Part shown: one piece after another, positions 18,750 to 40,722 of the stretch | Position numbering within the stretch: the stretch's first letter is position 1 | How the letters are laid out: each line of letters opens with the position of its first letter | Origin: Klebsiella sp. RHBSTW-00484 | Lineage (GTDB): Bacteria; Pseudomonadota; Gammaproteobacteria; Enterobacterales; Enterobacteriaceae | Direction of reading: 5' to 3' | Length of the DNA: 64,000 bases | NCBI RefSeq assembly: GCF_013705725.1 | Contig: NZ_CP055481.1 | Coordinates: forward strand, 5,952,001-6,016,000 | Translations under genes and position numbers: made by a program | Notes under the pieces: generated by a model | The model's database searches: none | The model's input: only the letters and a program-made list of their open reading frames with translations | Told to the model about the DNA's origin: nothing

Positions 18750-18764
18750 CGGGCAGGTACGGTT

Positions 18765-19265: not shown

Positions 19266-19277
19266 CCGGAGCCTGAA

Positions 19278-21831: not shown

Positions 21832-22015
<184 letters not shown>

Positions 22016-23002: not shown

Positions 23003-24295
23003 GTATGAACCGGAAACATGGGTAACACTTTAGACCGGATACATGGGTAACAGTTATAACTGACATAGAAGAGGAGACTCACTATGCCCTGGACTGAGAC
23101 CCGACCTATGCAACGTCTTGATTTTATCCGTGCCTGCCATGCAGGTACGGGCTCCTTCTCTGCTCTTTGCCGTCTTTTCGGCATCAGCCGAAAAACTGGC
23201 TATAAATGGCTTGAACGTTTTGACCCTTCTGACCTCTCATCTCTCTCTGACCGCTCACGCGCTCCCCACTCCCACTCCCGGACTGTTCCTGATGATATCG
23301 TCGGGCATCTGACTGCCCTGCGTCAAAAACACCCTGACTGGGGGCCTAAAAAACTGCGGATGTGGTTGCTCAATCACCATGTCGATTTTACCGTACCTGC
23401 TGCCAGCACTATCGGCGATATCCTCAAGCGTGAAGGCCTGGTCCCGGATAAAAAGAGAAAACGCAGAACACCGGGTAATCGCCAGCCCCTGACCCTCATC
23501 ACTGAGAACAATCAGGTCTGGAGCGCTGATTTTAAAGGCAAGTTCAGGTTGCTGAGCAGAGAGTACTGCCATCCCTTCACTCTGACCGACAATCACAGCC
23601 GATATCTGCTGAGCTGCCGTGGAACATTCCGGGAGAGTGAATCCTTTGTCAGAGAGTGCCTGACTGATGCGTTCCTGGAATATGGCCTGCCGGAAGTCCT
23701 CAGAACTGATAACGGTCAACCCTTTGCGGGAACAGGTATAGCCGGATTAAGCCGTCTTGCCGTCTGGCTAATCAAGCTGGGCATCAGACCGGAACGTATC
23801 AGAAAGGGTCATCCGGAAGAAAATGGCCGCCATGAGCGAATGCATCGCTCCCTGAAAAGTGCGGTGAAATATGGCAACACCTTCATGACGATGGCAGAAC
23901 AACAGCGGTGGTTCAGTGACTACCGGGAAGAGTTTAACCACGAGAGGCCGCATGAAGCCCTGGCAGGCGCAACGCCCGGAACGGTGTGGCAACCGTCGGG
24001 CCGACAATGGGATGGCAGTGTTCCGGAATATGTGTATCCGGCAGGAGGCACGGTCTACAGGGTGAAATCGAGGGGAACACTTTATATGGGTAAAAAGGGG
24101 GCGGTGTTCCTGAGTGAAGCGCTGACTGACGAGTACATTATGCTGAAAGAACAAGATGATGGCCTGGAAGCCATCATCTTTAATGGAATAACGCTTGCGT
24201 ACTATGACCAAAAAAACCAGAGTGTGCTCCGGATAGACTAAAAAGTGTTACCTATGTTCCCGGTCTGATCTGTCACCTATGTATCCGGTCATACA
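23003..24295 (+). mobile_element. IS481-family-like insertion sequence, 1293 bp
   Basis: Imperfect terminal inverted repeats of about 47 bp: the left end GTATGAACCGGAAACATGGG and the right end (reversed) TGTATGACCGGATACATAGG. Each contains two copies of an ACCGGxxACATxGGTxACA motif. It is flanked by a direct repeat CTGCG (22998-23002 and 24296-24300). Removing the element plus one copy restores an intact REP palindrome, which fixes the ends. It carries one intact transposase gene. Confidence 0.85.
23084..24241 (+). CDS. IS481-family-like DDE transposase
   Basis: The 385 residues comprise an N-terminal helix-turn-helix (FSALCRLFGISRKTGYKWLERF, near residues 22-45), a linker, and an integrase (rve) catalytic core with the DDE triad: first Asp in VWSADFKGKF, second in LRTDNGQPF, and Glu in GHPEENGRHERMHRSLK. 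There is no frameshift, so it is probably active. The start has a GAGGAG ribosome site. It is the only gene in the element. Confidence 0.92.
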   Translation: MPWTETRPMQRLDFIRACHAGTGSFSALCRLFGISRKTGYKWLERFDPSDLSSLSDRSRAPHSHSRTVPDDIVGHLTALRQKHPDWGPKKLRMWLLNHHVDFTVPAASTIGDILKREGLVPDKKRKRRTPGNRQPLTLITENNQVWSADFKGKFRLLSREYCHPFTLTDNHSRYLLSCRGTFRESESFVRECLTDAFLEYGLPEVLRTDNGQPFAGTGIAGLSRLAVWLIKLGIRPERIRKGHPEENGRHERMHRSLKSAVKYGNTFMTMAEQQRWFSDYREEFNHERPHEALAGATPGTVWQPSGRQWDGSVPEYVYPAGGTVYRVKSRGTLYMGKKGAVFLSEALTDEYIMLKEQDDGLEAIIFNGITLAYYDQKNQSVLRID

Positions 24296-24408: not shown

Positions 24409-25080
24409 TTAAGCATAAATATGGCGGGCGATCAGCGCCGCCAGCGTCCCATCCTGCTGCCACCGTCTCACCAACTCTTCCATCTGCTGATAATAGTGCG
24501 GGGCCGCGCGCGGCACGCAGATTGCCTGCTGAATCTGGCTATAGCTATCGGGTAGCACACGAACGCTATCTTGCCCCTGGGCGGCGGCTTCCAGCAGTTG
24601 ACGAATATTCGCCATCATATCCCCCTCACCCTCCATGAAAGCACTGAGCGCCTGCTGAGTCGTGGGATATTCGCAAAGTCGGGCATGTTTTAAGGTGCGG
24701 ATCAATGGCAATGAATAGGCAGAACCCCTTCCGACGTTAATCGTCACGCCTCCACGGTCCATCTCATGAACCGAATGTACCTCGCTATCGCGACGCACCA
24801 GAACAGTACAGTCGATAGTGAGATAGGGCGAGGTAAAACGCAGCTCGTTCTCACGCGCCGGATCCACCGCCAGAAAAGCAATATCCCATTGATTATTTAC
24901 GGCATCATCAACGATGCGCTTTGCCGCAGGATAAGGTTCCAACAGCTCCGTCTGCTGGCAGGAGTGCGCAATTTTTCGCGCCAGATCGACCGTCAGCCCG
25001 CTCAGCTCACCGTCGGCTGACTGCTCTGCCAGCAAAGCATTGCCTAAATTAATTGCAAAACGTAAAGCTGATGATGGCAT
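24409..25080 (-). CDS. Solute-binding protein fold (SBP_bac_3 type) without signal peptide
   Basis: This encodes 223 residues. It starts MPSSALRFAINLGNALLA and shows the amino-acid-binding-protein layout: GELSGLTVDLARKIA, the YPAAKRIVDDAVNNQWDIAFLAVDPARENELRFTSPY block, and the second lobe with NVGRGSAYSLPLIRTL. No signal sequence or lipobox precedes it, and the 59 bp up to the regulator gene leave no room for one. It therefore probably stays in the cytoplasm, as a sensor or as an enzyme on the same fold (compare PheC-type dehydratases). No ABC permease or ATPase genes are near. It is downstream of, and probably cotranscribed with, the GntR gene. Confidence 0.75.
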   Translation of the reverse strand: MPSSALRFAINLGNALLAEQSADGELSGLTVDLARKIAHSCQQTELLEPYPAAKRIVDDAVNNQWDIAFLAVDPARENELRFTSPYLTIDCTVLVRRDSEVHSVHEMDRGGVTINVGRGSAYSLPLIRTLKHARLCEYPTTQQALSAFMEGEGDMMANIRQLLEAAAQGQDSVRVLPDSYSQIQQAICVPRAAPHYYQQMEELVRRWQQDGTLAALIARHIYA

Positions 25081-25139: not shown

Positions 25140-25865
25140 CTATTTATCCCGATAGGTGCTGTACTGGAATTCATATTCTTCACGATACCAGGTTTCGCCC
25201 CACAGGATCAGTTTGTCATCGCCTGCCAGGCAAGTATGTTGACGCACCATCACCGGTCGGCTGCGTTTAATATCCAGAAATTTTGCCACTTCTTGCCCCG
25301 GCAACGCGACGCGAACCTGGTTATGAATGGTATGAATAATAATGCCCAGCTGTTGCTCAAATAGCGTCTGTAACGCCAGCGTTTCCAGCGAGGCGACGGC
25401 AATATTGGCCGCTATTTCGGCATCAAGATAGCGAATTTCGACCGCCAGCGGCTTCCCGTCGATAAGGCGTAAACGAACCAGACGGTATATTTTCGCACCG
25501 GCATTAAGCCGTAAATTTGCCAGTAAAGCCGGTGTTGACGGGACTTCGCCAAAGAAGAAAACCTGGTACTGAATAGAAAGATTACTTTCCTGCAAATCTT
25601 TCTCGAAAAAGCCAAGCTCTTGCTTTCTGACGCGCGTCACAATCGGCACAGTTTTGACAAACGTTCCTTTGCCGCGCACGCGCTCAATAAGCCCTTCGCT
25701 TAGTAAACCGTGCATCGCATGAACCACGGTGGCGCGAGTGGTGGAAAATTGTTGGGCCAGTTCATTCTCGGACGGCAGCTTATGACCAGGTGGATAATCC
25801 CCCCGCTTAATGCCGTTGCGAAGTTGTTCCTGGATCTGCACATAGATCGGTAAAACGTGAGCCAT
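25140..25865 (-). CDS. GntR/HutC-family regulator, likely controller of the citrate-lyase cluster
   Basis: This encodes 241 residues with an N-terminal winged helix (residues 8-72, PPGHKLPSENELAQQFSTTRATVVHAMHGL) and a C-terminal UTRA ligand-binding domain (IYRLVRLRLIDGKPLAVEIRYLD, ending GETWYREEYEFQYS). It is divergent from the 26011-40722 cluster. The 145-bp intergenic region holds two identical 14-bp elements, good operator candidates for autoregulation and cluster control. Confidence 0.9.
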   Translation of the reverse strand: MAHVLPIYVQIQEQLRNGIKRGDYPPGHKLPSENELAQQFSTTRATVVHAMHGLLSEGLIERVRGKGTFVKTVPIVTRVRKQELGFFEKDLQESNLSIQYQVFFFGEVPSTPALLANLRLNAGAKIYRLVRLRLIDGKPLAVEIRYLDAEIAANIAVASLETLALQTLFEQQLGIIIHTIHNQVRVALPGQEVAKFLDIKRSRPVMVRQHTCLAGDDKLILWGETWYREEYEFQYSTYRDK

Positions 25866-25888
25866 GTAGAAGTATCTCTATTTGCCAG

Positions 25889-25921
25889 GTTGTATAGTCA
25901 ACTCAAAGTTGTATAGTCAAC
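25889..25921. promoter_or_regulatory. Twin operator candidate: two copies of GTTGTATAGTCAAC
   Basis: The exact 14-mer GTTGTATAGTCAAC occurs at 25889-25902 and 25908-25921, with 19 bp from start to start. Each copy has inverted ends (GTTG...CAAC) and a central TATAG, like HutC-type GntR operators. They lie between the divergent regulator gene and amidohydrolase gene. A perfect small hairpin GGCTCT-CTAC-AGAGCC follows at 25947-25962 in the leader. Confidence 0.7.
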
Positions 25922-26010
25922 TACGCAACTTAAAGGTGGACATTCAGGCTCTCTACAGAGCCAGCAACAGCCATTTTATCGTTATCTCACTGAAAAAGGA
26001 TAAAATTTAG

Positions 26011-26805
26011 ATGCATTTTGATACTCATGCTCATGTTTTTACCACCGGTTTACCGCTGGCAGAGCATTGCCGCTATGTACCGGAGTACGATGCAGCACCA
26101 GCGCAATATCTTGCGCAACTGGATAAGCACCATATCGATAAAGCGATTCTGATCCAGCCCAGTTTTCTGGGTACCGATAATAGCTATATGCTGGACGCGA
26201 TTCGCCAGTCGCCGGACCGTTTTTACGGCGTTGCGGTCATCGACCCTGATACGTCACTTAGCGAGATGGAAGCGTTAAAACAGCAGGGTATTATCGGTGT
26301 ACGCTTGAATCTTATTGGCCAGGATCTTCCTGACTTAACAACATCGGTCTGGCAGCAGCATCTGCGTAATATAAAAGCGCTTGGCTGGCATATTGAACTT
26401 CATCGCCCAGTGGCGGATTTAGTCCCCCTACTTGGCGTACTGCTCGCCGCCGACGTAAAAATTGTGATCGACCACTTTGCTTTACCTGCTGAAAAAGAAA
26501 AAGATCCAGGATTTATTTATCTTCTCAAGCAAGCGGAAACCGGTAAAATATGGGTAAAAGTCTCCGCCAGCTACCGAAATGGCAGTGAACAAAAGCCAAC
26601 AGATAATACAAAGATGCTAGTTCCATTACTGTTAAAACACTTTGGCCCTGAACGGTTAATGTGGGGCAGTGATTGGCCGCATACGCGCTACGAAGACAGC
26701 ATGACCTATACGAAAGCAATAGATGAAATATATAACTGGGAATTAACAAATACTCAACGCGATAATATTTTTTGCCAAAGCGTTATAGAACTCATTAATA
26801 GTTGA
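26011..26805 (+). CDS. Amidohydrolase-fold hydrolase of the LigI / COG3618 type, probable lactonase
   Basis: This encodes 264 residues, a compact TIM barrel. Predicted active-site residues are the HxH pair His6/His8 (FDTHAHVF), His131 (HIELHRP), His155 (IDHFALP) and Asp221 with His224 (WGSDWPH). Arg98 and Asn100 in GVRLNLIG resemble the carboxylate-holding site of 2-pyrone-4,6-dicarboxylate hydrolase. Family members open lactones of carboxylated rings (LigI, sulfomuconolactonase, sugar lactonases) and differ in substrate. It is the first gene of the cluster, directly under the twin operators, with ribosome site AAGGAT. The substrate is unknown; a polycarboxylate lactone is inferred from the downstream genes. 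Its AT content is higher than that of citD-oadB. Confidence 0.8.
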   Translation: MHFDTHAHVFTTGLPLAEHCRYVPEYDAAPAQYLAQLDKHHIDKAILIQPSFLGTDNSYMLDAIRQSPDRFYGVAVIDPDTSLSEMEALKQQGIIGVRLNLIGQDLPDLTTSVWQQHLRNIKALGWHIELHRPVADLVPLLGVLLAADVKIVIDHFALPAEKEKDPGFIYLLKQAETGKIWVKVSASYRNGSEQKPTDNTKMLVPLLLKHFGPERLMWGSDWPHTRYEDSMTYTKAIDEIYNWELTNTQRDNIFCQSVIELINS

Positions 26806-26963
26806 GTATTAACCCAAAAACAATACAGCATATATCATTACAATAATATATATTTTGGCAAGGGTTGAACTCCCATTCACAAAATATATGAATAAAAACC
26901 GATATCAAAACCGTTATTTTCGGTTGCTGCCCCATTTCCGATAACACGGTAAAAGGACTTATC

Positions 26964-28265
26964 ATGAACATCAGCATGATAGTAATACTCTCTATTGTGA
27001 TCTCTATTGCGTTAGGTTACCGCACAAAAATAAACACCGGTTTATTCGCAATTGTATTCGCGTACCTTATAGGTTGTTTCCTGCTGGATATGAAGGCCGG
27101 GGAAGTGATCAAAACATGGCCGATCAGTATTTTCTTTGTTATTTTTGCCGTTTCACTTTTTTATAACTTCGCTTTAATTAACGGTACATTAGAAAAGCTG
27201 GCCATGCATTTGCTCTACTTATGCCGCCACTTTCCTAAATTCTTGCCGCTGGTCATTTACTTCGCCGCCACCTTTGTGGCGAGCCTGGGGGCGGGTTTCT
27301 TCACCGTTCTCGCTTTCTTCGCACCGTTAACGCTGCTGCTGTGCCGTAAAACGGGAATGAATAAACTGGTCGCCGCCGTCGCCGTCAACTATGGCGCCCT
27401 GGGCGGTGCTAATTTTATGACCAGCGCCAGCGGCGTCGTATTTCGTGGGCTTATCGATAGCGCGGGCTACAGCGCAAGCTCCTTTATCTACGTTTCAACT
27501 ATTTTCCTGGTTTCCTTCCTCTTACCAATCGTCGTTATTCTGTTGTTAATCTTCCTGACTAACCGTGGCAATAATGCCGTTACTGGCGCATTGCAGGTTG
27601 AAAAACCGGATGCGTTCGATAGCACACAGAAGTTAAATCTGCTGCTTATCTTCGCGATGCTGCTGGTGGTTCTGGCGTTCCCGGTGATGCATCTCATCAT
27701 GCCAGAATCCGCTAACATCAAATTTATCAACGCTCGAGTGGACGTTGGCCTGGTCTCAATTGTGTTCGCCGTTATCTCTCTGTTCCTCAAGCTTGGCGAT
27801 GAGAAAAAAGCCATTGCCCTGGTGCCATGGAATACGCTGATCATGATCTGCGGCGTCGGGATGCTGATTCAGGTCGCCATTAAAGCGGGCACCATTGATA
27901 TGCTGGCGAGCTGGGTGGGTTCAAGCCTGCCTGCGGCCATCGTTCCCTTCGCGCTGGCAATTATCGGCGGCATGATGTCGTTCTTCAGCAGCACCCTCGG
28001 CGTCGTCTGTCCGGCCCTGTTCCCGATCATTCCGTCAATTGCAGCCTCTACTGGTATTAACGCCCTGGTGCTGTTCACCGCCACGGTTATTGGCGCACAG
28101 GCTACGGCAATATCCCCGTTCTCTTCCGGCGGTAGCCTGCTTCTCGGCTCCTGCTCTGAAGATAAAGAACGTAATGAACTGTTCCCTACCCTGCTGTTTA
28201 AGGCGGTGCCGATGTGCGTGTTCTTCGCACTATTAAGCGTCGCCATCATGATGATGTTTTTTTAA
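26964..28265 (+). CDS. MatC-type di/tricarboxylate carrier
   Basis: The 433 residues form about 12 membrane segments. The sequence resembles the dicarboxylate carrier MatC family (SLC13/ion-transporter superfamily): N-terminal re-entrant domain YRTKINTGLFAIVFAYLIG, helices with FVASLGAGFFTVLAFFAPLTLLLC and NYGALGGANFMTSASGVVFRG, and a C-terminal ATVIGAQATAISPFSSGGSLLLGSC. It is placed where citrate clusters usually carry CitS or CitT. As inference, it brings in the substrate of the pathway, possibly with Na+ supplied by the OadGAB pump. A 158-bp AT-rich gap separates it from the amidohydrolase gene. Confidence 0.78.
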   Translation: MNISMIVILSIVISIALGYRTKINTGLFAIVFAYLIGCFLLDMKAGEVIKTWPISIFFVIFAVSLFYNFALINGTLEKLAMHLLYLCRHFPKFLPLVIYFAATFVASLGAGFFTVLAFFAPLTLLLCRKTGMNKLVAAVAVNYGALGGANFMTSASGVVFRGLIDSAGYSASSFIYVSTIFLVSFLLPIVVILLLIFLTNRGNNAVTGALQVEKPDAFDSTQKLNLLLIFAMLLVVLAFPVMHLIMPESANIKFINARVDVGLVSIVFAVISLFLKLGDEKKAIALVPWNTLIMICGVGMLIQVAIKAGTIDMLASWVGSSLPAAIVPFALAIIGGMMSFFSSTLGVVCPALFPIIPSIAASTGINALVLFTATVIGAQATAISPFSSGGSLLLGSCSEDKERNELFPTLLFKAVPMCVFFALLSVAIMMMFF

Positions 28266-28287
28266 TTAAGGCAAAAGAGGGTCGATA

Positions 28288-29346
28288 ATGAATGCCACCA
28301 CAATAATGAGCAGAGTGAACAGCAAGAACGCTGCCAAAATAGCCGAAGTGGCTTGTTTTCTTCAGGCTAATAATCTGGATATCGACCCTCACGTTACCGA
28401 TTTCGTAGTACTTCGCCAGCAGGGGAATATCGTCGCCTGCGGCGGGGTAGATGGCGAAATAATTAAATGCGTCGCTATTTCCCCGCAGCTCCGCGGCCAG
28501 GGCGTATTGCTCAAACTAGTCACCGAACTGATTAATATCGCCATAGAGGGCGGCAATAGCACATTATTCGTTTATACCCGCAGCCATAACGAGCATCTAT
28601 TTCGCCATTGCGGTTTCACCACGTTGGTGTCTATTCCTGACTGCATGGTGTTAATGGAAAATAGCGGCTCGCACCTGACACGTTATTTACAACAGCTGGC
28701 GCAATGGCGTAAGCCTGGCAAGCGTATTGCCGCCATCGTGATGAACGCCAATCCCTTTACCAATGGGCATCTGCATCTTATTCGCTATGCCGCGACGCAT
28801 TTTGACTGGCTACATCTGTTTCTGGTCAACGAAGATGCCGCCCAGTTTCCGTTCGCCGACCGGCTTGCGCTGGTGCGTGACGCGACGCAGGGTATCACGA
28901 AACTGACGGTACATCCCGGCTCGCAATATATGATTTCGCGCGCCACTTTTCCGGCCTACTTCCTGAAAGAGCAGGCGCTGGTTGAACGCTGCTACACGCA
29001 AATCGATATCACGCTTTTTCGTCAATATATCGCCCCGGTATTGGGTATCACGCACCGCATCGTCGGGAACGAACCTTTCTGCCCAATCACCGCGCGCTAT
29101 AACCAGGACATGCGCCATTGGTTAAGCACGCCAGAGCTCCCCTTCGCGCCGGTCGAGCTCGTTGAGATTTCGCGGCTGCAATGGCAAGGCACGCCCGTTT
29201 CCGCATCCCGGGTTCGCCGCCTGCTACAGCAGAATCGTTTAACTGAGGTCGCCCCGCTGGTACCTGACGCCACCCTACGTTATCTGAAACGCCAGCAGAA
29301 CACTGCCCTGGCGAACACGACCAAGACCCCCACAGGAGCATTATGA
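28288..29346 (+). CDS. citC: [Citrate (pro-3S)-lyase] ligase
   Basis: The 352 residues have an N-terminal GNAT-like acetyltransferase-fold domain ([17 protein letters not shown], residues 65-80) and a C-terminal nucleotidyltransferase domain with the HxGH-like AP motif [15 protein letters not shown] near residue 155. CitC acetylates the thiol of the CitD prosthetic group with acetate and ATP, switching citrate lyase on. The ATGA overlap with citD (29343) shows coupling. Confidence 0.95.
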
Positions 29347-29636
29347 AACAGATAGTCCCCGCCGTTGCCGGGACTCTGGAGTCCAGCGATGTGATGATTC
29401 GCATCGAACCGTTGACCCCGGAGCAACCGCCGGAAATTGAAATATCCAGCTCGGTTCAGAAGCAGTTTGGCGATGCCATTCGCGCCACCCTGGCTGCGGT
29501 ACTGCAACAACATGCGATTCGCGGCGTCGCCGTGATCGTTGATGACAAAGGCGCGCTGGACTGCGTGCTGCGTGCACGGCTGGAAACCGCGCTGATGCGT
29601 GCGGGCGCGCTGACGCTGTGTTGGGGGGAAAAATAA
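29343..29636 (+). CDS. citD: Citrate lyase acyl carrier protein (gamma subunit)
   Basis: This encodes 97 residues. The serine carrying the 2'-(5''-phosphoribosyl)-3'-dephospho-CoA group is Ser14 in [13 protein letters not shown]. It shuttles acetyl and citryl groups between the alpha and beta subunits. Overlaps: 4 nt with citC, 1 nt (TAATG) with citE. Confidence 0.96.
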
Positions 29637-30532
29637 TGACGCCAGAACGTAAAAACCGCCTGCGCCGCAGCATGTTGTTCGTCCCCGGTGCCAATGCCGC
29701 CATGCTGAGCAACGCCTTTATTTATCCTGCCGACGCGCTGATGTTTGACCTTGAAGACGCCGTGGCCGTGCGTGAGAAAGACGCTGCCCGCCGCCTGGTT
29801 TACCACGCGTTGCAGCACCCGTTGTACCGCGATATCGAGACCATTGTTCGCGTTAACGCTCTGGATTCGCAGTGGGGTATCGATGACCTGGAGGCCGTAG
29901 TGCGCGCCGGGGTCGATATCGTCCGTCTGCCGAAAACCGACACCGCAGATGATGTTATTGCGATGGAAAAAGAGATTGCCCGCATCGAACAGGAGTGCGG
30001 ACGCAAGCCCGGCAGCACCGGGATGCTGGCGGCGATTGAATCGGCAAAAGGCATTCTGCAGGCTCCAGCCATCGCCCTGGCTTCGCCGCGCTTAATCGGC
30101 ATCGCGCTGGGCGCGGAAGATTACGTGCGCGATATCCGTACCGAACGCTCCGCTGACGGCATCGAGCTGCTGTTTGCCCGCTGCACCATCCTGCAAGCAG
30201 CGCGGGCGGCGGGCATTCAGGCTTTCGATACCGTCTACAGCGACGCCAACAACGAAGAGGGCTTCCTGCACGAAGCGGCGCACATCAAACAGCTCGGCTT
30301 TGACGGCAAATCGCTGGTCAACCCGCGACAAATCACCCTACTGCATAACCTCTACGCCCCGACGCAAAAAGATGTCGATCACGCACGGCGCGTAGTTGAA
30401 GCCGCAGAAGCCGCAGAACGCGAAGGCCTGGGGGTCGTCTCTCTGAACGGCAAGATGATCGACAGTCCGATTATCGCGCGCGCCCACCTGGTGCTGTCCC
30501 GCGCTGAACTTTCCGGCGTCCGTGAGGAGTAA
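29636..30532 (+). CDS. citE: Citrate lyase beta subunit (citryl-ACP lyase)
   Basis: This encodes 298 residues from [24 protein letters not shown]. It cleaves citryl-ACP to oxaloacetate and acetyl-ACP. The HpcH/CitE aldolase-like barrel shows [38 protein letters not shown] (Arg), [15 protein letters not shown] (Glu metal ligand) and [11 protein letters not shown] (Asp metal ligand). An in-frame earlier ATG at 29618 lies inside citD and is unlikely. Confidence 0.96.
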
Positions 30533-30539
30533 AACCGCC

Positions 30540-32033
30540 ATGAATCATACTCAAGACTTATCCCAGATCATCGGTGAACTGACGCCATTTGCCGACACCG
30601 ACAAGCAAACCCAGCGCCAGCAGCGTCGGGCTAAAACCTGCGCTTCGCTGGAAGAGGCCGTGCGCCGCTGCGGGCTGCGCGACGGCATGACTATCTCTTT
30701 CCACCACGCCTTTCGCGGCGGCGACTTGACGCTAAACCTGGTGATGGAGCAGCTGGCGGCAATGGGCTTTAAAAACCTCACTCTGGCCTCCAGCTCCCTG
30801 AGCGCCTGCCACGCGCCATTAGTCGGCCATATCCGTAACGGCGTGGTCAGCCAGATTTACACTTCCGGGCTGCGCGGCCCGCTGGCGGAAGAGATTTCCC
30901 GTGGACTGATGGCGAACCCGGTGCAAATTCACTCCCACGGCGGTCGCGCCCATCTGGTGAAAAGCGGTGAGCTGAACATTGATGTCGCCTTCCTCGGCGT
31001 CCCGGCCTGCGATGATATGGGCAATGCCAACGGCTATACCGGTAGCGCCACCTGCGGTTCACTCGGCTACGCGATGGTCGATGCACAGCACGCGAACCAG
31101 GTCATACTGCTGACGGAAGATATCCTGCCCTACCCGCACCATCCGGCCAGTATCAGACAGGATCAGGTCGACCTGGTCGTACAGGTAGAGTGCGTTGGCG
31201 ATGCGGAAAAAATTGGTGCCGATGCGACCCGCATGACCTCCAACCCGCGCGAGCTGCAAATTGCACAGAACGCCGCGCAGGTCATTGAGGCTTCAGGTTA
31301 TTTCCGCGAAGGCTTCTCGCTGCAAACCGGTACCGGCGGCGCGGCTCTGGCGGTAACCCGCTTCCTCGGCGAGAAAATGCGCCGCAAAAATATCCGTGCC
31401 GATTTCGCCCTCGGCGGTATTACCGCCACCATCGTTGGCCTGCACGAAGAGGGCTACATCCGTCGCCTGCTTGACGTACAGGGGTTTGATAGCGTCGCCG
31501 CGCGCTCGCTGGCGCGTAATCCAAACCATATCGAAATCAGCGCCAACGAATACGCCAACTTCAGCTCCAAAGGCGCGTCGGTCAACAAACTGGACGTGGT
31601 GGTGCTGAGCGCGCTGGAAATCGACACCGGCTTTAACGTCAACGTGCTGACCGGCTCGGACGGCGTGCTGCGCGGCGCATCAGGCGGGCACTGCGATACC
31701 GCCGTCGGCTCGGCGCTGTCGATTATCGTCGCTCCGCTGGTTCGCGGGCGCATTCCGACCGTTGTCGATAAGGTACTAACCCGCATCACCCCCGGCTCCA
31801 GCGTTGATGTGCTGGTAACCGACCACGGCGTGGCGGTCAACCCGGCGCGACCTGAACTGGAACAGCGTCTCCAGGCGGCAGGACTAAAAACCGTTACCGT
31901 GGAATGGCTCTGTGACCGCGCACGCCAGCTGACGGACGAACCGCAGCCGATCGCCTTCACCGATAAACCCATCGCCATCGTGCGCTATCGGGACGGCTCG
32001 GTTATCGACGTCGTTTATCAGGTCCGCGATTAA
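30540..32033 (+). CDS. citF: Citrate lyase alpha subunit (citrate:acetyl-ACP transferase)
   Basis: This encodes 497 residues from [17 protein letters not shown] after a GAGGAG ribosome site. It swaps the acetyl group on CitD for citrate, giving citryl-ACP. The two-part CoA-transferase-like fold is recognisable ([54 protein letters not shown]). It ends in TAATGA, overlapping the start of citG. Confidence 0.96.
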
Positions 32034-32950
32034 TGACGCGCCCGATGCCTCTCGAATCCTGGGGCGCGCCCGTCGCACGTCAGGAAAAGCTGCCGCAGGC
32101 TTACCTCAGCCGCTATTACGCCAGGCTCGCCTGCCGGGCGATGCAGACGGAAGCCCGGCTAACGCCGAAGCCCGGTCTGGTTGATGGCCGCAATACTGGT
32201 GCCCATCAGGATATGGCGCTGCCTGATTTTCTGCGCAGCGCTAACGCCATCGCCAACGATCTCCCCCTGTTTGTCGAGGAGGGGATCGCCAGCGCGACGC
32301 TTGATACCAACGGCGTTCTGGCTCGCCTGAAGCCCATCGGGCTACGCTGCGAAACGGCAATGCTGCACGCCACGGGAGGCGTCAACACCCATAAAGGCGC
32401 CATCTTCACGCTCGGGCTGTTTTGCGCGGCGCTGGGGCGTCACGAGGCTTTGGGGCAATCGCTCGCGCCCGCCGCGCTGGCCGCCACCGTGAGCAAATTT
32501 TGCCACGGTATTGTCGAGCGCGAACTGGTTGAGCTTCACGGCCTGACGCCGCTGACCGCCGGACAGCGGCTGTTTATCACCCTCGGCTTAACCGGCGCAC
32601 GCGGTGAGGCACAGGCAGGATACCCGCTGGTTATCGATCACGCCCTGCCCCGCTATCGTCAGCTGCGCCGCGAAGGGCTAAGCGAGGAGTTGGCGCTGCT
32701 CAATACCCTGCTGCTGATCATGTCGCGCAACGACGATACCTGCGTCGCGTCGCGTGGCGGGAGCAAGGGGCTGCGCTGGCTACAGTATCAGGCGCAGCAG
32801 TTGCTCAACGTCGGCGGGATCCGCTCGCCCGAGAACCTCTCTCTGTTGCAGCAGCTCGATGACCTCTGTATTTCTCGCAACCTTAGCCCAGGCGGCAGCG
32901 CTGATTTACTCATCCTGACCTGGTTTTTATCTCATTTTACTCAAGAATAA
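32033..32950 (+). CDS. citG: Triphosphoribosyl-dephospho-CoA synthase
   Basis: This encodes 305 residues. CitG makes 2'-(5''-triphosphoribosyl)-3'-dephospho-CoA, the precursor of the citrate lyase cofactor. Motifs are [73 protein letters not shown] and [15 protein letters not shown]. The partner transferase CitX is not in this window, so attachment of the group must rely on a gene elsewhere. Translationally coupled to citF. Confidence 0.94.
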
Positions 32951-32961
32951 GGATTATCACT

Positions 32962-35559
32962 GTGCTGGAAGAATACCGTAAGCACGTCGCTGAGCGTGCA
33001 GCCGAAGGGATTGTTGCAAAACCCTTAGATGCAACCCAAATGGCCGGCCTGGTTGAGCTGCTGAAGAATCCGCCTGCTGGCGAAGAAGAATTCCTGTTAG
33101 ATCTGTTAATTAACCGCGTACCGCCGGGCGTCGACGAAGCCGCCTATGTTAAAGCCGGATTCCTTGCCGCAATCGCCAAAGGCGAAGCGACTTCCCCGCT
33201 GGTGACCCCTGAAAAAGCCATCGAACTGCTGGGCACCATGCAGGGCGGTTACAACATTCATCCGCTGATTGATGCGCTGGACGACGCAAAACTTGCGCCG
33301 ATTGCCGCGAAAGCACTGTCCCATACCCTGCTGATGTTCGATAACTTCTACGACGTAGAAGAGAAAGCCAAAGCAGGCAATGAATATGCCAGACAGGTGA
33401 TGCAATCCTGGGCTGACGCCGAGTGGTTCCTGAACCGTCCGCAGCTGGCTGACAAAATCACCGTCACCGTTTTTAAAGTCACCGGCGAAACCAATACCGA
33501 TGACCTGTCTCCGGCCCCTGATGCCTGGTCCCGCCCGGATATCCCGCTGCATGCGCAGGCGATGCTGAAAAACGCCCGTGAAGGAATCGACCCGGATCAG
33601 CCTGGCGTTGTTGGCCCGATCAAACAGATCGAAGCGTTGCAGCAGAAAGGTTTCCCGCTGGCCTACGTTGGCGATGTGGTGGGGACCGGTTCATCACGTA
33701 AATCGGCCACTAACTCGGTGCTGTGGTTTATGGGCGATGACATCCCGAACGTGCCGAACAAGCGCGGCGGCGGTCTTTGCCTCGGGGGTAAAATTGCCCC
33801 TATCTTCTTCAACACCATGGAAGATGCGGGCGCGCTGCCGATTGAAGTGGACGTCAACAAACTGAACATGGGTGACGTGATTGACGTTTATCCGTTCAAA
33901 GGTGAAGTGCGCAACCACGAAACCAACGAACTGCTGGCTAACTTCGAACTGAAAACCGACGTGCTGGTCGACGAAGTGCGTGCCGGTGGCCGTATTCCGC
34001 TGATTATCGGTCGCGGCCTGACCACCAAAGCGCGTGAAGCGCTGGGTCTGCCGCACAGCGACGTTTTTCGTCAGGCGAAAGACGTGGCGGAAAGTAACCG
34101 TGGTTACTCCCTGGCGCAGAAAATGGTGGGTCGCGCCTGCGGCGTGGCCGGTATTCGTCCGGGTGCTTACTGCGAGCCGAAGATGACTTCCGTCGGCTCT
34201 CAGGACACCACCGGTCCAATGACCCGTGATGAACTGAAAGACCTGGCGTGCCTGGGCTTCTCATCTGACCTGGTGATGCAGTCCTTCTGCCACACGGCGG
34301 CGTATCCGAAGCCGGTTGACGTCACCACACACCATACGCTGCCGGACTTCATTATGAACCGTGGCGGCGTATCGCTGCGTCCGGGCGATGGCGTTATCCA
34401 CTCCTGGCTGAACCGTATGCTGCTGCCGGATACCGTGGGTACCGGCGGTGACTCCCATACCCGTTTCCCGATTGGCATTTCCTTCCCGGCGGGCTCCGGT
34501 CTGGTGGCGTTTGCTGCCGCGACCGGCGTGATGCCGCTGGATATGCCGGAATCCGTTTTAGTTCGTTTCAAAGGCAAGATGCAGCCGGGTATCACCCTGC
34601 GCGATCTGGTGCATGCGATCCCGCTGTATGCGATTCGCCAGGGCCTGCTGACCGTTGAGAAGAAAGGCAAGAAAAACATCTTCTCCGGCCGCATTCTCGA
34701 AATCGAAGGTCTGCCGGATCTGAAAGTCGAGCAGGCGTTTGAACTGACCGATGCTTCCGCCGAACGTTCTGCTGCCGGTTGTACCATCAAACTGAACAAA
34801 GAGCCGATCGTTGAGTACCTGACCTCCAACATCGTGCTGCTGAAGTGGATGATCGCGGAAGGCTACGGCGATCGCCGTACCCTGGAACGTCGCGTGCAGG
34901 GCATGGAAAAATGGCTGGCGGAACCTGAATTACTGGAAGGTGATGCAGATGCTGAATATGCGGCAGTGATCGACATCGATCTGGCTGATATTAAAGAGCC
35001 CATCCTGTGCGCGCCGAACGATCCGGACGATGCGCGTCTGCTGTCTGACGTGCAGGGCGAGAAGATTGACGAAGTGTTTATCGGTTCCTGCATGACCAAC
35101 ATCGGCCACTTCCGTGCTGCCGGTAAGCTGCTGGACAGCCACAAAGGGCAGCTGCCAACCCGCCTGTGGGTGGCGCCGCCAACCCGTATGGACGCAGCGC
35201 AGCTGACCGAAGAAGGCTACTACAGCGTGTTTGGTAAGAGCGGTGCGCGTATTGAAATCCCGGGTTGTTCCCTGTGTATGGGTAACCAGGCGCGCGTAGC
35301 GGACGGTGCGACGGTGGTTTCGACCTCAACCCGTAACTTCCCGAACCGTTTAGGTACCGGTGCAAACGTCTTCCTGGCTTCTGCGGAGCTGGCGGCAGTC
35401 GCGGCGCTTATCGGTAAGCTGCCGACGCCGGACGAGTACCAGACCTGGGTGGCGCAGGTAGAGAAGACGGCGGCAGACACCTACCGCTATCTGAACTTCG
35501 ATCAGCTGGGTCAGTACACGGAAAAAGCAAATAACACCCTTTTCCAGATAACTCTTTAA
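32962..35559 (+). CDS. acnB: Aconitate hydratase B, extra copy within the citrate-lyase cluster
   Basis: The 865 residues are exactly the E. coli AcnB length and, by my reading, nearly identical over long stretches. Layout: N-terminal HEAT-like domain (1-160), swivelling domain 4 (about 170-370, with [16 protein letters not shown]), then the catalytic [4Fe-4S] domains with cluster cysteines in [18 protein letters not shown] and [14 protein letters not shown]. It interconverts citrate, cis-aconitate and isocitrate. The GTG start follows a weak AAGGAT site, 11 bp after citG. A housekeeping acnB normally lies next to lpd elsewhere, so this is probably a second copy recruited to the pathway; the strong identity suggests recent duplication or transfer. 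Confidence 0.95.
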
Positions 35560-35690
35560 TTCTGTATCTGCGCGGCAGCGCCGGCGGAAGAGTGGGCAAT
35601 GGTCATCACCTGCGAGGGTGAAGGGAAATCCAAAATGCCAACGACTGTTCTCCCTCTGACGCGACGCTGCTGCGCATCCAGGAAAATACA

Positions 35691-35942
35691 ATGACTGATA
35701 ACGCACTGTTACTAAAAGAAGGCTTCACCCTGATGTGTCTCGGGATGGGATTCGTGCTGGCGTTTCTGTTCCTGCTGATTTTCGCCATCCAGGGCATGTC
35801 CGTCGCCGTCAACCGCTTCTTCCCTGAACCGGCCCCGGCGCCCGGAGCGGCACCCGCTGCCGCCGCGCCCGCTGACGACTTCACCCGCTTAAAGCCGGTG
35901 ATTGCCGCCGCTATCCACCACCATCGCCGCCTTAACCCTTAA
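35691..35942 (+). CDS. oadG: Oxaloacetate decarboxylase gamma subunit
   Basis: This encodes 83 residues. One membrane helix (residues 10-35, [26 protein letters not shown]) is followed by a Pro/Ala-rich linker and a His-containing tail ([11 protein letters not shown]) that can bind zinc. It assembles OadA with OadB. The 131 bp between acnB and oadG contain no gene I can support. Confidence 0.93.
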
Positions 35943-35957
35943 TTCACGGAGCATTCC

Positions 35958-37721
35958 ATGACCGTTGCCATTACCGATGTCGTCCTGCGCGACGCCCACC
36001 AGTCCCTTTTCGCCACCCGCCTGCGTCTTGACGATATGCTGCCCATCGCCGCTCAGCTCGATGACGTCGGCTACGGCTCCCTCGAATGCTGGGGCGGCGC
36101 CACCTATGACGCCTGCATCCGCTTTCTCGGCGAAGACCCGTGGGTCCGCCTGCGCGAGCTTAAAAAAGCCATGCCGAAGACCCCGCTGCAGATGCTGCTG
36201 CGCGGCCAGAACCTGCTTGGCTACCGCCACTACGCCGATGACGTGGTGGAGCGCTTTGTTGAGCGTGCCGTCAAAAACGGCATGGACGTGTTCCGCGTCT
36301 TCGATGCCATGAACGACCCGCGCAATATGAAAGCGGCCCTCCAGGCGGTACGCAGCCACGGCGCGCACGCCCAGGGCACGCTCTCGTATACCACCAGCCC
36401 GGCGCACACCCTGCAGACCTGGCTGGACCTGACTGAACAGCTGCTGGAAACCGGCGTCGATTCCATCGCCATCAAGGATATGTCCGGCATCCTGACCCCG
36501 TCTGCCGCTTTCGAGCTGGTCAGCGAAATCAAAAAGCGCCACGACGTGCGCCTGCACCTGCACTGCCACGCCACCACCGGGATGGCGGAAATGGCCCTGC
36601 TGAAGGCTATCGAAGCGGGCGTTGACGGCGTGGATACCGCGATTTCCTCGATGAGCGCCACCTACGGCCACCCGGCCACCGAGGCGCTGGTCGCCACCCT
36701 TGCCGGGACAAAATACGACACCGGGCTGGATATCCTCAAGCTGGAGAGCATTGCCGCGTATTTCCGCGAGGTGCGCAAAAAATACCACGCCTTTGAAGGC
36801 CAGCTGAAGGGCTACGACAGCCGCATTCTGGTGGCCCAGGTGCCGGGCGGGATGCTCACCAACCTCGAAAGCCAGCTGAAGCAGCAGAACGCCGCCGACA
36901 AACTCGACCTGGTACTGGCGGAAATCCCCCGCGTGCGCGAGGACCTCGGCTTTATTCCGCTGGTGACCCCGACCTCGCAGATTGTCGGCACCCAGGCGGT
37001 GCTTAACGTCCTGACCGGCGAGCGTTACAAAACCATCGCTAAAGAAACGGCGGGCATTCTGAAAGGCGAGTACGGCCACACCCCGGTGCCGGTGAATGCC
37101 GCATTGCAGGCCCGCGTGCTGGAAGGGGCTGCCCCGGTGACCTGCCGCCCGGCGGATTTACTCAAGCCGGAGCTGGCGCAACTGGAAGCCGACGTGAAGC
37201 GCCAGGCGCAGGAGAAGGGCATTACGCTTGCGGAAAACGCCATCGACGACGTGCTGACCGTGGCGTTGTTCCCGCAAATCGGCCTCAAATTCCTCGAGAA
37301 CCGTAACAACCCGGCAGCCTTTGAGCCGGTACCACAGGCAGAAACCGCGCAGCCTGCTGCTCCGGTAAAAGCCGCCGCCTCCGGCGTCTATACCGTCGAA
37401 GTCGAAGGTAAAGCCTTTGTGGTGAAGGTCAGCGACGGCGGCGATATCAGCCAGTTGACGGCAGCCGTTCCAGCCTCCGCGCCAGCAGCTGCGGCTCCGG
37501 CAGGCGCAGGCACCCCGGTGACCGCCCCGCTGGCGGGCACCATCTGGAAGGTGATTGCCGGCGAAGGCCAGACGGTCGCCGAAGGCGACGTGCTGCTGAT
37601 TCTGGAAGCCATGAAGATGGAAACCGAAATCCGCGCCGCGCAGGCCGGGACCGTGCGCGGTATCGCGGTGAAGTCCGGGGACGCGGTCTCTGTCGGCGAC
37701 ACCCTGATGACCCTGGCGTAA
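35958..37721 (+). CDS. oadA: Oxaloacetate decarboxylase alpha subunit (biotin-carrying carboxyltransferase)
   Basis: This encodes 587 residues. The N-terminal carboxyltransferase TIM barrel starts [19 protein letters not shown], with the HLHCHATTG metal site and [13 protein letters not shown] Pro/Ala-rich hinge follows near residues 455-520, then a C-terminal biotinyl domain with the target lysine in EAMKMETEI. It moves carboxyl from oxaloacetate to biotin, releasing pyruvate. It lies 15 bp from both oadG and oadB. Confidence 0.97.
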
Positions 37722-37736
37722 GGAAAAGGAACGGAA

Positions 37737-39038
37737 ATGGAAAGTCTGAACGCCCTGATTCAGGGCATGGGCCTGATGCACCTCGGCATCGGCCAGGCCA
37801 TCATGCTGCTGGTGAGCCTGCTGCTGCTGTGGCTGGCGATTGCGAAGAAGTTCGAGCCGTTACTGCTGCTGCCGATTGGCTTCGGCGGCCTGCTGTCGAA
37901 TATCCCGGAAGCCGGGCTGGCGCTGACCGCGCTGGAGAGCCTGCTGGCGCACCACGACGCCGGGCAGCTGGCGGTGATTGCCGCGAAGCTCAACTGCCTG
38001 CCGGACGTGCATGCCATCAAGGAAGCCCTGGCGCTGGCGCTGCCGTCGGTACAGAGCCAGATGGAAGACCTGGCGGTGGATATGGGCTACTCGTCCGGGG
38101 TGCTGGCGATTTTCTATAAGGTCGCCATCGGCTCGGGCATCGCCCCGCTGGTGATTTTTATGGGCGTCGGGGCGATGACCGACTTCGGTCCGCTGCTGGC
38201 CAACCCGCGCACCCTGCTGCTGGGGGCAGCGGCGCAGTTCGGTATCTTCGCCACGGTCCTCGGGGCACTGACGCTGAACTACTTCGGCCTGATTTCCTTC
38301 ACCCTGCCGCAGGCGGCGGCGATAGGCATCATCGGCGGGGCGGACGGCCCGACGGCGATTTACCTGTCGGGCAAGCTGGCGCCGGAGCTGCTGGGGGCCA
38401 TCGCGGTAGCGGCGTACTCGTATATGGCGCTGGTGCCGTTAATCCAGCCGCCGATTATGAAGGCGCTGACCAGCGAGAAAGAGCGGAAAATCCGCATGGT
38501 GCAGCTGCGCACGGTGAGTAAGCGGGAAAAAATCCTCTTCCCGGCGGTGCTGTTGCTGCTGGTGGCGCTGCTGCTGCCGGACGCGGCCCCGCTGCTGGGG
38601 ATGTTCTGCTTCGGCAACCTGATGCGCGAAAGCGGCGTGGTGGAGCGTCTGAGCGACACGGTGCAGAACGGGCTGATTAATATCGTGACCATTTTCCTGG
38701 GATTATCCGTGGGCGCGAAGCTGGTGGCAGACAAGTTCCTGCAGCCGCAGACGCTGGGCATTCTGGTGCTGGGGGTGATTGCCTTTGGTATCGGGACGGC
38801 GGCCGGCGTGCTGATGGCGAAGCTACTGAACCTGTTCAGTGAAAACAAAATCAACCCGCTGATTGGTTCCGCCGGGGTCTCGGCGGTGCCGATGGCAGCA
38901 AGGGTGTCGAACAAGGTGGGCCTGGAGTCAGACCCGCAGAACTTCCTGCTGATGCACGCGATGGGCCCGAACGTGGCCGGAGTGATTGGCTCGGCGATTG
39001 CCGCCGGGGTGATGCTCAAATATATCGTATCGCTGTAA
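37737..39038 (+). CDS. oadB: Oxaloacetate decarboxylase beta subunit (sodium pump)
   Basis: The 433 residues match Klebsiella OadB in length. It is the membrane subunit that decarboxylates carboxybiotin and exports Na+. Conserved parts are [54 protein letters not shown] (with the key Asp), and [21 protein letters not shown]. The Na+ gradient could drive substrate uptake by the cluster's carrier. A REP cluster follows immediately. Confidence 0.97.
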
Positions 39039-39047
39039 CACCGCGTT

Positions 39048-39222
39048 ATTCCCGGAGGCGGCGCATTGCGCCTGTCCGGGCTACAGATTCACGGCCGTCT
39101 GCGGGTTGGTAGCCCGGACAAGGCGCGTCAGGCGCCGCCTCCGGGAAACAGCAGGCAACATGGCTCCCGCTTTCTCCCGGCTTGCGCTGCGCTGAGCCGG
39201 GCTACGGGTTCACATCCGTCTG
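39048..39222. repeat. REP/BIME cluster between oadB and the CitG-like gene
   Basis: Inverted units face each other: TTCCCGGAGGCGGCGCATTG...TGTCCGGGCTAC (39050-39083) and GTAGCCCGGACAAGGCGCGT...CCGCCTCCGGGAA (39109-39147). A third unit with CCCGGCTTGCGCTGCGCTGA and GCCGGGCTACGG follows. Together they can form large hairpins that may stabilise upstream mRNA or attenuate the last two genes. Confidence 0.88.
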
Positions 39223-39253
39223 CAAGCCGGGAATACCCTACAAGGAGAAAGAG

Positions 39254-39877
39254 ATGTCTGAAACAGCAATGCCTGAATATACCGCCGCCCGGATAAGCAG
39301 AACCACGCTGGCCGGCTATCTTCATCAGTCACTGGAACTGGCCAGCAAACTGGCCTCCGGTCTAAAAATACTCCAGCTACCGGTGAGCGACACCCGCCGG
39401 GCCGCAACGGTGCTGACGGAGCCGGTCTACGCCGCCGCCGGGTTGCGTCTTGCCCGCCAACAGCCTCTGGCGCAGAACCCGCTCTGCGACGACGTATTGT
39501 GGCGCTTTCGCCAGGCTCCCGGCCTGACGGCTGACCTACCAGATCTGGTTGAGACCGTACGCAGCGTAGCGCTGCCGGTCTGGTCACGCCTGCACCGCGA
39601 CGGACACGGCGACGATATCGCCATTCGCCAGACGTTGCTGCACATCCTCGCCTGGCGAAGCGATTCCCCATGGCTACAGGATCAGGCGCAGCGAATACTC
39701 TGGCAGGGAGGCGTGTTGGGTGAAAAAGGAGAGGCCGTGTTAACATCCCTCGACGATGAAGCCGCCCTCCGATGCATCGTGTTCCGCGGGCTGAGTGAAC
39801 TACTGACCACCACCGGTTTTTTAGTCCACTTCCCGGCGGGACCTCTGTTTTGTGATGAAAATACTGAGAGTTATTAA
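39254..39877 (+). CDS. Unrecognised protein; C-terminal half looks like a degenerate CitG
   Basis: This encodes 207 residues from an ATG after AAGGAGAAAGAG. By eye its second half follows the CitG of this cluster: DLVETVRSVALPVWSRLHRDGHGDDIAIRQTLLHIL against Cit[35 protein letters not shown]. Then a DQAQRILWQGGVL block matches [12 protein letters not shown], and a C-terminal LDDEAALR...LL...FLVHF matches LDDLCISR...LL...FLSHF. The CitG motifs GGVNTHKGA and [10 protein letters not shown] are absent, so CitG catalysis is not expected. It is not CitX. It is coupled to the FAH gene by a TAATG overlap. This similarity is inference; an unrelated family is possible. Confidence 0.5.
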   Translation: MSETAMPEYTAARISRTTLAGYLHQSLELASKLASGLKILQLPVSDTRRAATVLTEPVYAAAGLRLARQQPLAQNPLCDDVLWRFRQAPGLTADLPDLVETVRSVALPVWSRLHRDGHGDDIAIRQTLLHILAWRSDSPWLQDQAQRILWQGGVLGEKGEAVLTSLDDEAALRCIVFRGLSELLTTTGFLVHFPAGPLFCDENTESY

Positions 39878-40722
39878 TGAAGTTAATCAGTTTTTGCGTA
39901 AGCAATATCCCCCGCTATGGTCTGCTGCGGGAGGGCGGCGTTGTCGATTTAACCCGACATTTTCTGCAATATCCGTCGCTGAAGTCTTTTCTGGCGGCCA
40001 TGGACAACATTCCGGCAGAAATGCTGTCGCATATGGCGATCGACTACGCCCTCGATGAGATCGAATTTTTGCCGCTGATCCCCGACCCGCAAAAGATCCT
40101 CTGCGTCGGGATGAACTACCAGGCCAAACGACTGGAGTTTGACGAACAGGATCCCGACCCGACGCTGTTTATCCGCTTTCCGGATTCCCAGTGCGGGCAT
40201 CTGGGCGACATCATTAAACCGGCCGCCAGCCACGAGTTTGATTATGAAGGTGAACTGGCGCTAGTGATCGGTAAACGCGGGCGCAATATTCCCGCGGAGC
40301 GGGCGCTGGAGCACGTTGCCGGGTACAGCTGCTATATGGACGGCTCGGCCCGCGACTGGCAGCACGCCTGGTTTACCGCCGGAAAAAACTGGCCATCGAC
40401 CGGCGGCTTCGGCCCCTGGCTGGTGACGCGGGATGAAATCGCCGACCCTAACGCACTAGCGATCAAAACCCGGCTCAACGGCATGGAAGTACAGAACGAC
40501 AATACCGCCAGCATGATCCACAGCGTTCCGGAGCTGATTGCCTATATCAGCACCTTCTGCGTTCTGACGCCGGGTGACGTTATCCTGACCGGCTCACCGG
40601 GCGGCGTGGGGAAAAAACGCACCCCACCGCTGTTCCTGCAGGATGGCGATACGATTGAAGTGGAAATTGAAAATATCGGCTGCCTGCGTAACCGCATCGT
40701 TGACGAGGTGCCGGAAGCGTAA
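39877..40722 (+). CDS. Fumarylacetoacetate hydrolase (FAH) family protein
   Basis: This encodes 281 residues. The FAH-fold domain begins near residue 70 (KILCVGMNYQAKRLEF). Metal ligands are Glu124 and Glu126 in FDYEGELALVIGKRGR and Asp155 in CYMDGSARD. Lys170, TGSPGGVG and the closing IEVEIENIG complete the family pattern. Members act as acylpyruvases, oxaloacetate decarboxylases (FAHD1) or oxaloacetate tautomerases (FAHD2-like). In a cluster whose intermediate is oxaloacetate, tautomerase or decarboxylase activity is a fair guess, but not proved. It ends the cluster and is convergent with lacA. Confidence 0.85.
   Translation: MKLISFCVSNIPRYGLLREGGVVDLTRHFLQYPSLKSFLAAMDNIPAEMLSHMAIDYALDEIEFLPLIPDPQKILCVGMNYQAKRLEFDEQDPDPTLFIRFPDSQCGHLGDIIKPAASHEFDYEGELALVIGKRGRNIPAERALEHVAGYSCYMDGSARDWQHAWFTAGKNWPSTGGFGPWLVTRDEIADPNALAIKTRLNGMEVQNDNTASMIHSVPELIAYISTFCVLTPGDVILTGSPGGVGKKRTPPLFLQDGDTIEVEIENIGCLRNRIVDEVPEA

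Follow-up and report, generated by a model that had tools for sequence, protein, structure and literature searches.

Why should an operon for citrate lyase and oxaloacetate decarboxylase also carry a second aconitase gene and a gene for a hydrolase related to a lactonase? The question is raised by a block of genes in a stretch of 64,000 nucleotides (hereafter the window) from the 6.9-Mb genome of Klebsiella sp. RHBSTW-00484 (contig NZ_CP055481.1, positions 5,952,001 to 6,016,000). The block lies at window positions 25140-40722, flanked by a gene that we take to be ysgA-like and by the lac operon. Rightward it reads hydrolase, MatC carrier, citCDEFG, acnB, oadGAB, an open reading frame (ORF) of 207 aa and FAH, with a GntR/UTRA regulator gene reading leftward. 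We consider it probable, by a modest measure, that the block is an operon under GntR control which serves anaerobic growth on isocitrate lactone (5-oxotetrahydrofuran-2,3-dicarboxylate), and probably on free isocitrate or aconitate as well. The original prediction had described a co-directional block of LigI/COG3618 hydrolase, MatC, citCDEFG, AcnB, oadGAB and FAH genes, and the ORF list and profile searches found every one of them present and open at the following positions:

25140..25865, minus strand: GntR/HutC-type (UTRA) regulator, divergent from the operon (Pfam GntR and UTRA; synteny in a further Klebsiella genome, G297, in K. spallanzanii and in Citrobacter amalonaticus)
25889-25902 and 25908-25921 (span 25889..25921), no strand: two 14-bp palindromes GTTGTATAGTCAAC, likely GntR operators (sequence search)
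26011..26805, plus strand: cog3618 amidohydrolase (Amidohydro_2), proposed tricarboxylate-lactone hydrolase
26964..28265, plus strand: MatC_N/CitMHS carrier, proposed substrate importer (Pfam MatC_N and CitMHS)
28288..29346, plus strand: citC, citrate lyase ligase (TIGR00124, 432 bits)
29343..29636, plus strand: citD, citrate lyase acyl carrier (gamma) subunit (PRK13253 and TIGR01608, above cut-off)
29636..30532, plus strand: citE, citrate lyase beta subunit (TIGR01588, 457 bits)
30540..32033, plus strand: citF, citrate lyase alpha subunit (TIGR01584, 780 bits; clades with other hydrolase-type operons)
32033..32950, plus strand: citG, triphosphoribosyl-dephospho-CoA synthase (TIGR03125 above, PRK10096 below cut-off)
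32962..35559, plus strand: acnB, second aconitase B gene (TIGR00117, 1674 bits)
35691..35942, plus strand: oadG, Na+ oxaloacetate decarboxylase gamma (PRK02919, above cut-off)
35958..37721, plus strand: oadA, Na+ oxaloacetate decarboxylase alpha (TIGR01108, 986 bits; AMKM biotin motif, residue 551)
37737..39038, plus strand: oadB, Na+ oxaloacetate decarboxylase beta (PRK15475, 940 bits)
39254..39877, plus strand: 207-aa ORF, conserved in the block (no Pfam/NCBIfam match)
39877..40722, plus strand: FAH-family protein, proposed oxaloacetate keto-enol tautomerase or decarboxylase helper (Pfam FAA_hydrolase)

The original prediction had made no mention of the divergent regulator, the two palindromes, the 207-aa ORF or the fact that this acnB has a nearly identical second copy in the genome. 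CitC, CitD, CitE, CitF, AcnB, OadA, OadB and OadG each score above the curated cut-off of one or more NCBIfam models. There is no citX in the block; the single citX of this genome is at G000:C1:5157338-5157841 (TIGR03124 above cut-off), outside the block. The 207-aa ORF, for which no Pfam or NCBIfam match was obtained at E<=0.001, is kept in the block of all three genomes that are readable there (the window, G297 and C. amalonaticus, the last with 48% identity over two thirds of the length). GC content is lower in the genes for the hydrolase (45%), MatC (50%), GntR (50%) and citC (54%) than in citDEFG and oadGAB (59-64%) or acnB and FAH (57%), in agreement with a grafted front end of the operon.

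Second aconitase genes and the separate citrate cluster

Citrate alone was rejected as the main substrate, because an ordinary citS cluster is already present in the same genome. There, dapB and citGFEDC diverge from citS, oadGAB and a sensor kinase gene; the citS scored 713 bits against a cut-off of 600, and CitF of this cluster is 68-70% identical to CitF of the window block. Since the citS cluster does without acnB, the window block should not be needed for growth on citrate. In the excerpted text describing it (PMC2735749), the 13-kb citrate island of Klebsiella pneumoniae matches this separate cluster and shares citCDEFG, oadGAB and the chemistry from citrate onward with the window block, but it has citS, the two-component citAB and divergent operons in place of MatC and GntR; the string 'aconit' is absent from the main text of that paper.

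Second full-length acnB genes were sought in 119 Enterobacteriaceae genomes (among the matches listed, in which full-length copies rank top) and in 20 genomes of the genus. They were present in 8 of the 119 and in 6 of the 20, this genome included, which gave 13 distinct genes, every one of them inside a citrate-lyase operon or immediately next to one; no extra full-length acnB away from citrate lyase was seen in either sample. In one genome a fragment of 129 residues (G295:C1:693877-694263), 89% identical to the AcnB C-terminus, is perhaps the relic of a lost cluster copy.

Nine of the 13 belong to another operon type, found in several Enterobacteriaceae genera, with the order divergent LysR, PrpF, (MFS), (FAH), citCDEF(X)G, (Ser_hydrolase), acnB, (carrier), where brackets mark genes that may be absent (loci L116/L151, L117/L155, L118/L150, L119/L149, L120/L167, L121/L168, L152, L153 and L154). 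LysR and PrpF occur in eight of the nine, MFS and FAH in seven; the exceptions are G300, whose contig begins inside the operon, and G002, which is without MFS and FAH. The NCBIfam label on one of these PrpF proteins is 4-oxalomesaconate tautomerase. According to the excerpted text of a study of Bacillus velezensis (PMC11495376), TarA and TbrA of the PrpF superfamily are aconitate isomerases and LysR-TarA-MFS is a trans-aconitate system, and this LysR-PrpF-MFS layout of TarRAB is the one that heads the sister operons. By analogy, the nine PrpF-type operons probably ferment trans-aconitate. TarRAB, as described there (PMC11495376), also resembles the front end of the window operon in being a module of regulator, carrier and one enzyme that feeds aconitase; the window type has instead GntR, MatC and a LigI-type hydrolase, and no PrpF aconitate isomerase. 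The terms 'citrate lyase', 'acnb' and 'ferment' have no occurrences in the TarRAB paper.

The window operon and the PrpF-type operons are thus alike at the back end and different at the front. In a midpoint-rooted CitF tree, the four hydrolase-type operons group together (99/97); eight PrpF-type operons make up a second clade, and the canonical CitF sequences fall between the two. Because the two types carry different citF lineages, the combination of acnB with citrate lyase would have arisen more than once. PrpF itself had no match in the genome of the window; with one G057 operon as query no PrpF-type operon was matched in E. coli, and with one G303 operon as query plasmid matches covered at most 9%. 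One in-frame stop was seen in 7 of 35 PrpF-family matches (among the matches listed; G042, G090, G125, G128, G134, G165 and G179), which may reflect frequent gene loss.

A precedent for the proposed route is found in Acidaminococcus fermentans, which, according to the excerpted source (PMC3035267), ferments trans-aconitate via citrate, oxaloacetate and pyruvate in a Na+-dependent manner. As in the window, a tricarboxylate other than citrate is led to citrate, and MatC-type carriers and aconitases are among its genes; unlike in the window, these genes are scattered by locus tag, the entering acid is trans-aconitate and no lactone hydrolase was found in that text (PMC3035267). The window block combines the aconitase, citrate lyase, oxaloacetate decarboxylase and citrate/dicarboxylate-type carrier that an Acidaminococcus-type fermentation requires. 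Fermentation via citrate is known from Acidaminococcus; in the literature searched we found neither the front end of the window operon nor its coupling to acnB, that is, no acnB-citrate lyase operon, no isocitrate lactonase and no gene for the use of isocitrate lactone.

The hydrolase and its carrier

The predicted structure of the hydrolase (AF2 model) has a fold closest to that of cog3618 enzymes. Its residues H6, H8, Y22, S51, R98, H155, R189 and D221 align with H31, H33, Y49, S77, R124, H180, R217 and D248 of LigI (2-pyrone-4,6-dicarboxylate lactonase, PDB 4d8l), among which we take the HxH pair, the later His and the Asp to be catalytic; H6, H8, H155 and D221 are invariant in 22 of 22 aligned sequences, in an alignment of which two rows are trimmed at the N-terminus. 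The two proteins are thus alike in fold and in aligned active-site positions, but they share only 26-27% identity, the arginine R130 of LigI is replaced, and the gene context of the window hydrolase is unrelated to lignin. Members of cog3618 vary in substrate, and among the substrates considered isocitrate lactone would fit the window hydrolase best: if the enzyme is a lactonase that yields isocitrate, its substrate should be isocitrate lactone.

Of 54 loci with the MatC carrier, 28 have next to it a hydrolase from either of two families (a count that includes L024 and L059). In 22 of the 54 the neighbour is a cog3618 hydrolase, and 20 of these 22 loci are without citrate lyase subunits. The other six, five of them from Bacillota, pair the same carrier with DUF6282, a second protein of amidohydrolase fold, and three of the six lie beside an aconitase-family gene. 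GntR, MatC and hydrolase genes are also found together on a 65-kb mobilizable plasmid of Acinetobacter portensis, with no other catabolic gene adjacent. On informal inspection of the loci, the aerobes have carrier and hydrolase without citrate lyase and no further shared enzyme was seen in them, which suggests that the hydrolase yields a central metabolite. The fermenters have this pair of genes together with aconitase and citrate lyase, so that the product should lie on the isocitrate-aconitate side.

The genus Psychrobacter contributes 29 of the loci (e.g. L029 and L048), in which MatC lies mostly behind a GntR-type gene and, in most, tctCBA follows. The hydrolase is present in five and lacking in 24 of them, and most of the hydrolase-free loci carry tctCBA instead, a pattern that suggests gain or loss of a lactone branch.

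Recurrence of the block and conversion of its genes

The block is rare, and it recurs in three Klebsiella species and in C. amalonaticus. A close MatC homologue is present in 2 of 295 Enterobacteriaceae genomes, the genome of the window included, the third match at E<=0.001 being a 34% relative. Within the genus, 3 of 20 genomes carry the hydrolase. An order-level survey for the hydrolase at E<=1e-60 gave only the genome of the window among 394 drawn, and G061 (C. amalonaticus) was not among the matches. At 80% coverage the whole block was found in none of 34 matching plasmid records and none of 5375 matching E. coli genomes; the best 20 of the 34 and the best 20 of the 5375 matched acnB or oad only. 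The recurrence across genera on which the original prediction depended was borne out: the whole order is present in G297, and C. amalonaticus S646 has GntR, hydrolase (58%), MatC (79%), citCDEF, citX, citG, acnB (87%), oadGAB, the ORF and FAH (68%), with citX inside the block, unlike in the window.

In K. spallanzanii SB6411 the block is without acnB between citG and oadG, and the contig stops inside oadA; another acnB (75%) lies across GntR as the last gene of an extra operon (L077:8696-19311, L174:828-3295). That operon starts with a divergent LysR gene (53% identical to LysR of the PrpF-type operons), a protein of the PF10282 beta-propeller lactonase family (259 bits) and a MatC-like carrier, and continues with a 645-aa aconitase, PrpF, a 754-aa hydratase (which we take to be YbhJ-like), an isocitrate-dehydrogenase-like protein and acnB. 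The nearest curated models to the PF10282 protein, under cut-off, are 6-phosphogluconolactonases. The presence in a putative tricarboxylate operon of such a lactonase-family gene, whose product has an unrelated fold, supports a lactone in the pathway. The position of acnB between citG and oadG is common to Klebsiella and C. amalonaticus, so that K. spallanzanii alone is clearly different, and the idea of three separate captures of acnB within hydrolase-type operons is weakened accordingly.

The regulator probably has conserved sites of its own. The sequence GTTGNNTAGTCAAC has only two matches in the entire genome, both in the gap between GntR and the hydrolase. When up to two mismatches are allowed there are two matches in the window against 0.14 expected, a number reached by 2 of 100 shuffles. 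All four genomes have the palindromes in the corresponding position; C. amalonaticus has one exact copy and a second that is degenerate. Because they are unique to this gap and kept in four genomes, they argue for a dedicated regulator, and the two sites are likely the GntR operators.

The AcnB of the cluster has SCMTN at 709 and GCSLCMGN at 768, presumably iron-sulphur motifs, and is 99% identical in amino acids to the housekeeping copy. The two genes differ at 62 of 2598 nucleotides in the genome of the window and at 26 in G297, whereas the two cluster copies differ at 134. Where the four copies split two against two, 106 sites group by genome, 17 by locus and none otherwise; those by genome all fall within positions 155-2540, those by locus all at 5-18 or 2568-2594, and the similarity between copies ends at the gene ends. 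A mere recent duplication of acnB is ruled out by the diverged ends common to two species (the 17 by-locus sites). The site pattern points to an older single duplication that was then homogenised with the housekeeping gene within each species. Since it has been homogenised by gene conversion, the cluster AcnB is an ordinary aconitase. Conversion needs only high similarity and so is no proof of selection, and it masks the older history of the window acnB. The signal is weaker in oadGAB, which were compared with oadGAB of the citS cluster: 113 sites group by genome and 37 by locus, with a single site that does neither, and when the alignment is cut into 250-base bins the by-locus sites are confined to the first bin and the final two. 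In the genome of the window, however, the two copies differ at 200 of 3347 positions, nearly as many as separate the cluster copies of the two species (214 of 3348), against 56 of 3351 in G297.

Just left of the block are genes that we take to be of the tctCBA type (17775-20777), matched only to relatives, and a gene for a family-3 solute-binding protein (24409-25080); these are syntenic in G297 and K. spallanzanii. An IS481-like transposase gene (23084-24241) lies between ysgA and the solute-binding protein gene and is not at that place in G297. Rfam matches in the window are the Erse sRNA (12037-12288, minus strand, 154 bits) and, marginally, AaHKsRNA22 (21845-21956, plus strand, 39.9 against a cut-off of 39.8).

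The proposed pathway and its alternatives

In the proposed pathway, the MatC carrier would import the acid and the LigI-type hydrolase, judged by fold, residues and genome logic, would open the lactone to isocitrate. AcnB, an enzyme identified by its sequence, would then convert isocitrate via cis-aconitate to citrate. CitDEF, which are identifiable as citrate lyase and would be activated by CitC, CitG and the CitX encoded elsewhere, should cleave citrate to acetate and oxaloacetate, and OadGAB, likewise of clear identity, should decarboxylate oxaloacetate to pyruvate with pumping of Na+. Pyruvate would end as acetate, formate and CO2, as is known for citrate. GntR would act on the two identical sites of the shared promoter and would probably be released by the substrate. 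The FAH protein may keep oxaloacetate in the keto form or aid its decarboxylation. It belongs to the set common to both operon types, with proteins of 59-61% identity in seven PrpF-type operons. In its NYxxHxxE stretch, Lys replaces the usual His in 9 of 9 aligned sequences, so the reaction may differ. FAHD proteins tautomerise oxaloacetate according to the excerpted source (PMC10825186), an activity that would fit a pathway with a heavy flux of oxaloacetate.

Several observations weigh against the lactone. The Arg at position 130 of LigI, which we take to bind the substrate, is Q104 in the window hydrolase and K in most relatives, and cog3618 also includes lactone isomerases, so hydrolysis is uncertain; the window protein may act better on a related compound, or may catalyse an isomerisation or hydration. 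Nor does the hydrolase always go with MatC: it lies behind GntR and an MFS carrier in Caballeronia and Paraburkholderia, on an Agrobacterium plasmid beside an amino-acid-type ABC transporter, and in Comamonas beside a TctC-type protein. Conversely, 26 of the 54 MatC loci are without either hydrolase, namely the 24 from Psychrobacter and L014 and L016, and the carrier of the hydrolase-free Psychrobacter loci probably serves an open-chain acid. The aerobic pairs suggest a central metabolite but not which one. Isocitric lactone has been reported in sugarcane leaves by metabolomics, in the part of the source available (PMC6129145), where it could have been created by the work-up.

An alternative view is that the operon ferments trans-aconitate (or cis-aconitate) and that the cog3618 protein is no lactonase, but isomerises or hydrates trans-aconitate in place of PrpF. 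We regard this as unlikely. The lactone is the best fit given the cog3618 fold, the LigI-type residues, the pairing of carrier and hydrolase in aerobes and the lactonase-family gene of K. spallanzanii. The entering compound could also be some other lactone or ester from which isocitrate or aconitate is released; alloisocitrate lactone, an aconitate ester and a plant acyl-isocitrate are examples. Such a compound would obey the same genomic logic and suit the varied substrate range of cog3618; the A. portensis module, however, has no further enzyme next to it that would deal with an alcohol or acyl leaving group, and we think such a substrate improbable. We give a similarly small chance to an accessory cluster for citrate, in which acnB would serve only to draw off citrate towards isocitrate and 2-oxoglutarate for biosynthesis, with the hydrolase as a passenger: all enzymes of citrate fermentation are present and MatC matches CitMHS, but the genome already has a full citS cluster and a housekeeping acnB, the hydrolase accompanies the carrier in loci that mostly have no citrate lyase subunits, and extra full-length acnB genes were never seen apart from citrate lyase in the two samples. 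It is hardly credible that the hydrolase opens 2-pyrone-4,6-dicarboxylate as LigI does in lignin degradation. Among solved structures, the nearest enzymes bear the label of a probable or putative 2-pyrone-4,6-dicarboxylate hydrolase, but these labels are predictions, R130 is not conserved and the neighbours are aconitase and citrate lyase; the block holds no partner hydratase or aldolase, and the pyrone was rejected as substrate because the genome has no PrpF-family tautomerase.

Of the route that the original prediction had sketched, the comparative evidence (the 13 acnB genes, the parallel operons of aconitate-isomerase type and the separate citrate cluster) gives good support to entry at isocitrate or aconitate, and the lactone stands as the best fit only. 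A larger proposal, to which we give somewhat less than even credence, is that the hydrolase is a true isocitrate lactonase which, with the carrier and GntR, forms a widespread and partly plasmid-borne catabolic module; that Klebsiella and Citrobacter coupled this module to aconitase and citrate lyase and so became able to ferment isocitrate lactone; that DUF6282 substitutes for the hydrolase in some Bacillota; and that K. spallanzanii gained a further operon whose lactonase-family gene belongs to a third family.

If the preferred reading is true, these would be genes by which bacteria use isocitrate lactone, which has been reported from plants, and functions could be proposed for DUF6282, for one clade of FAH proteins and for a subgroup of cog3618 whose solved structures (2ffi and 4i6k) are of uncertain function. 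The acnB and oadGAB genes show concerted evolution between the catabolic operon and their counterparts at other chromosomal sites. For the Enterobacteriaceae a rule would follow, that a second aconitase gene beside citrate lyase marks the fermentation of a tricarboxylate other than citrate.

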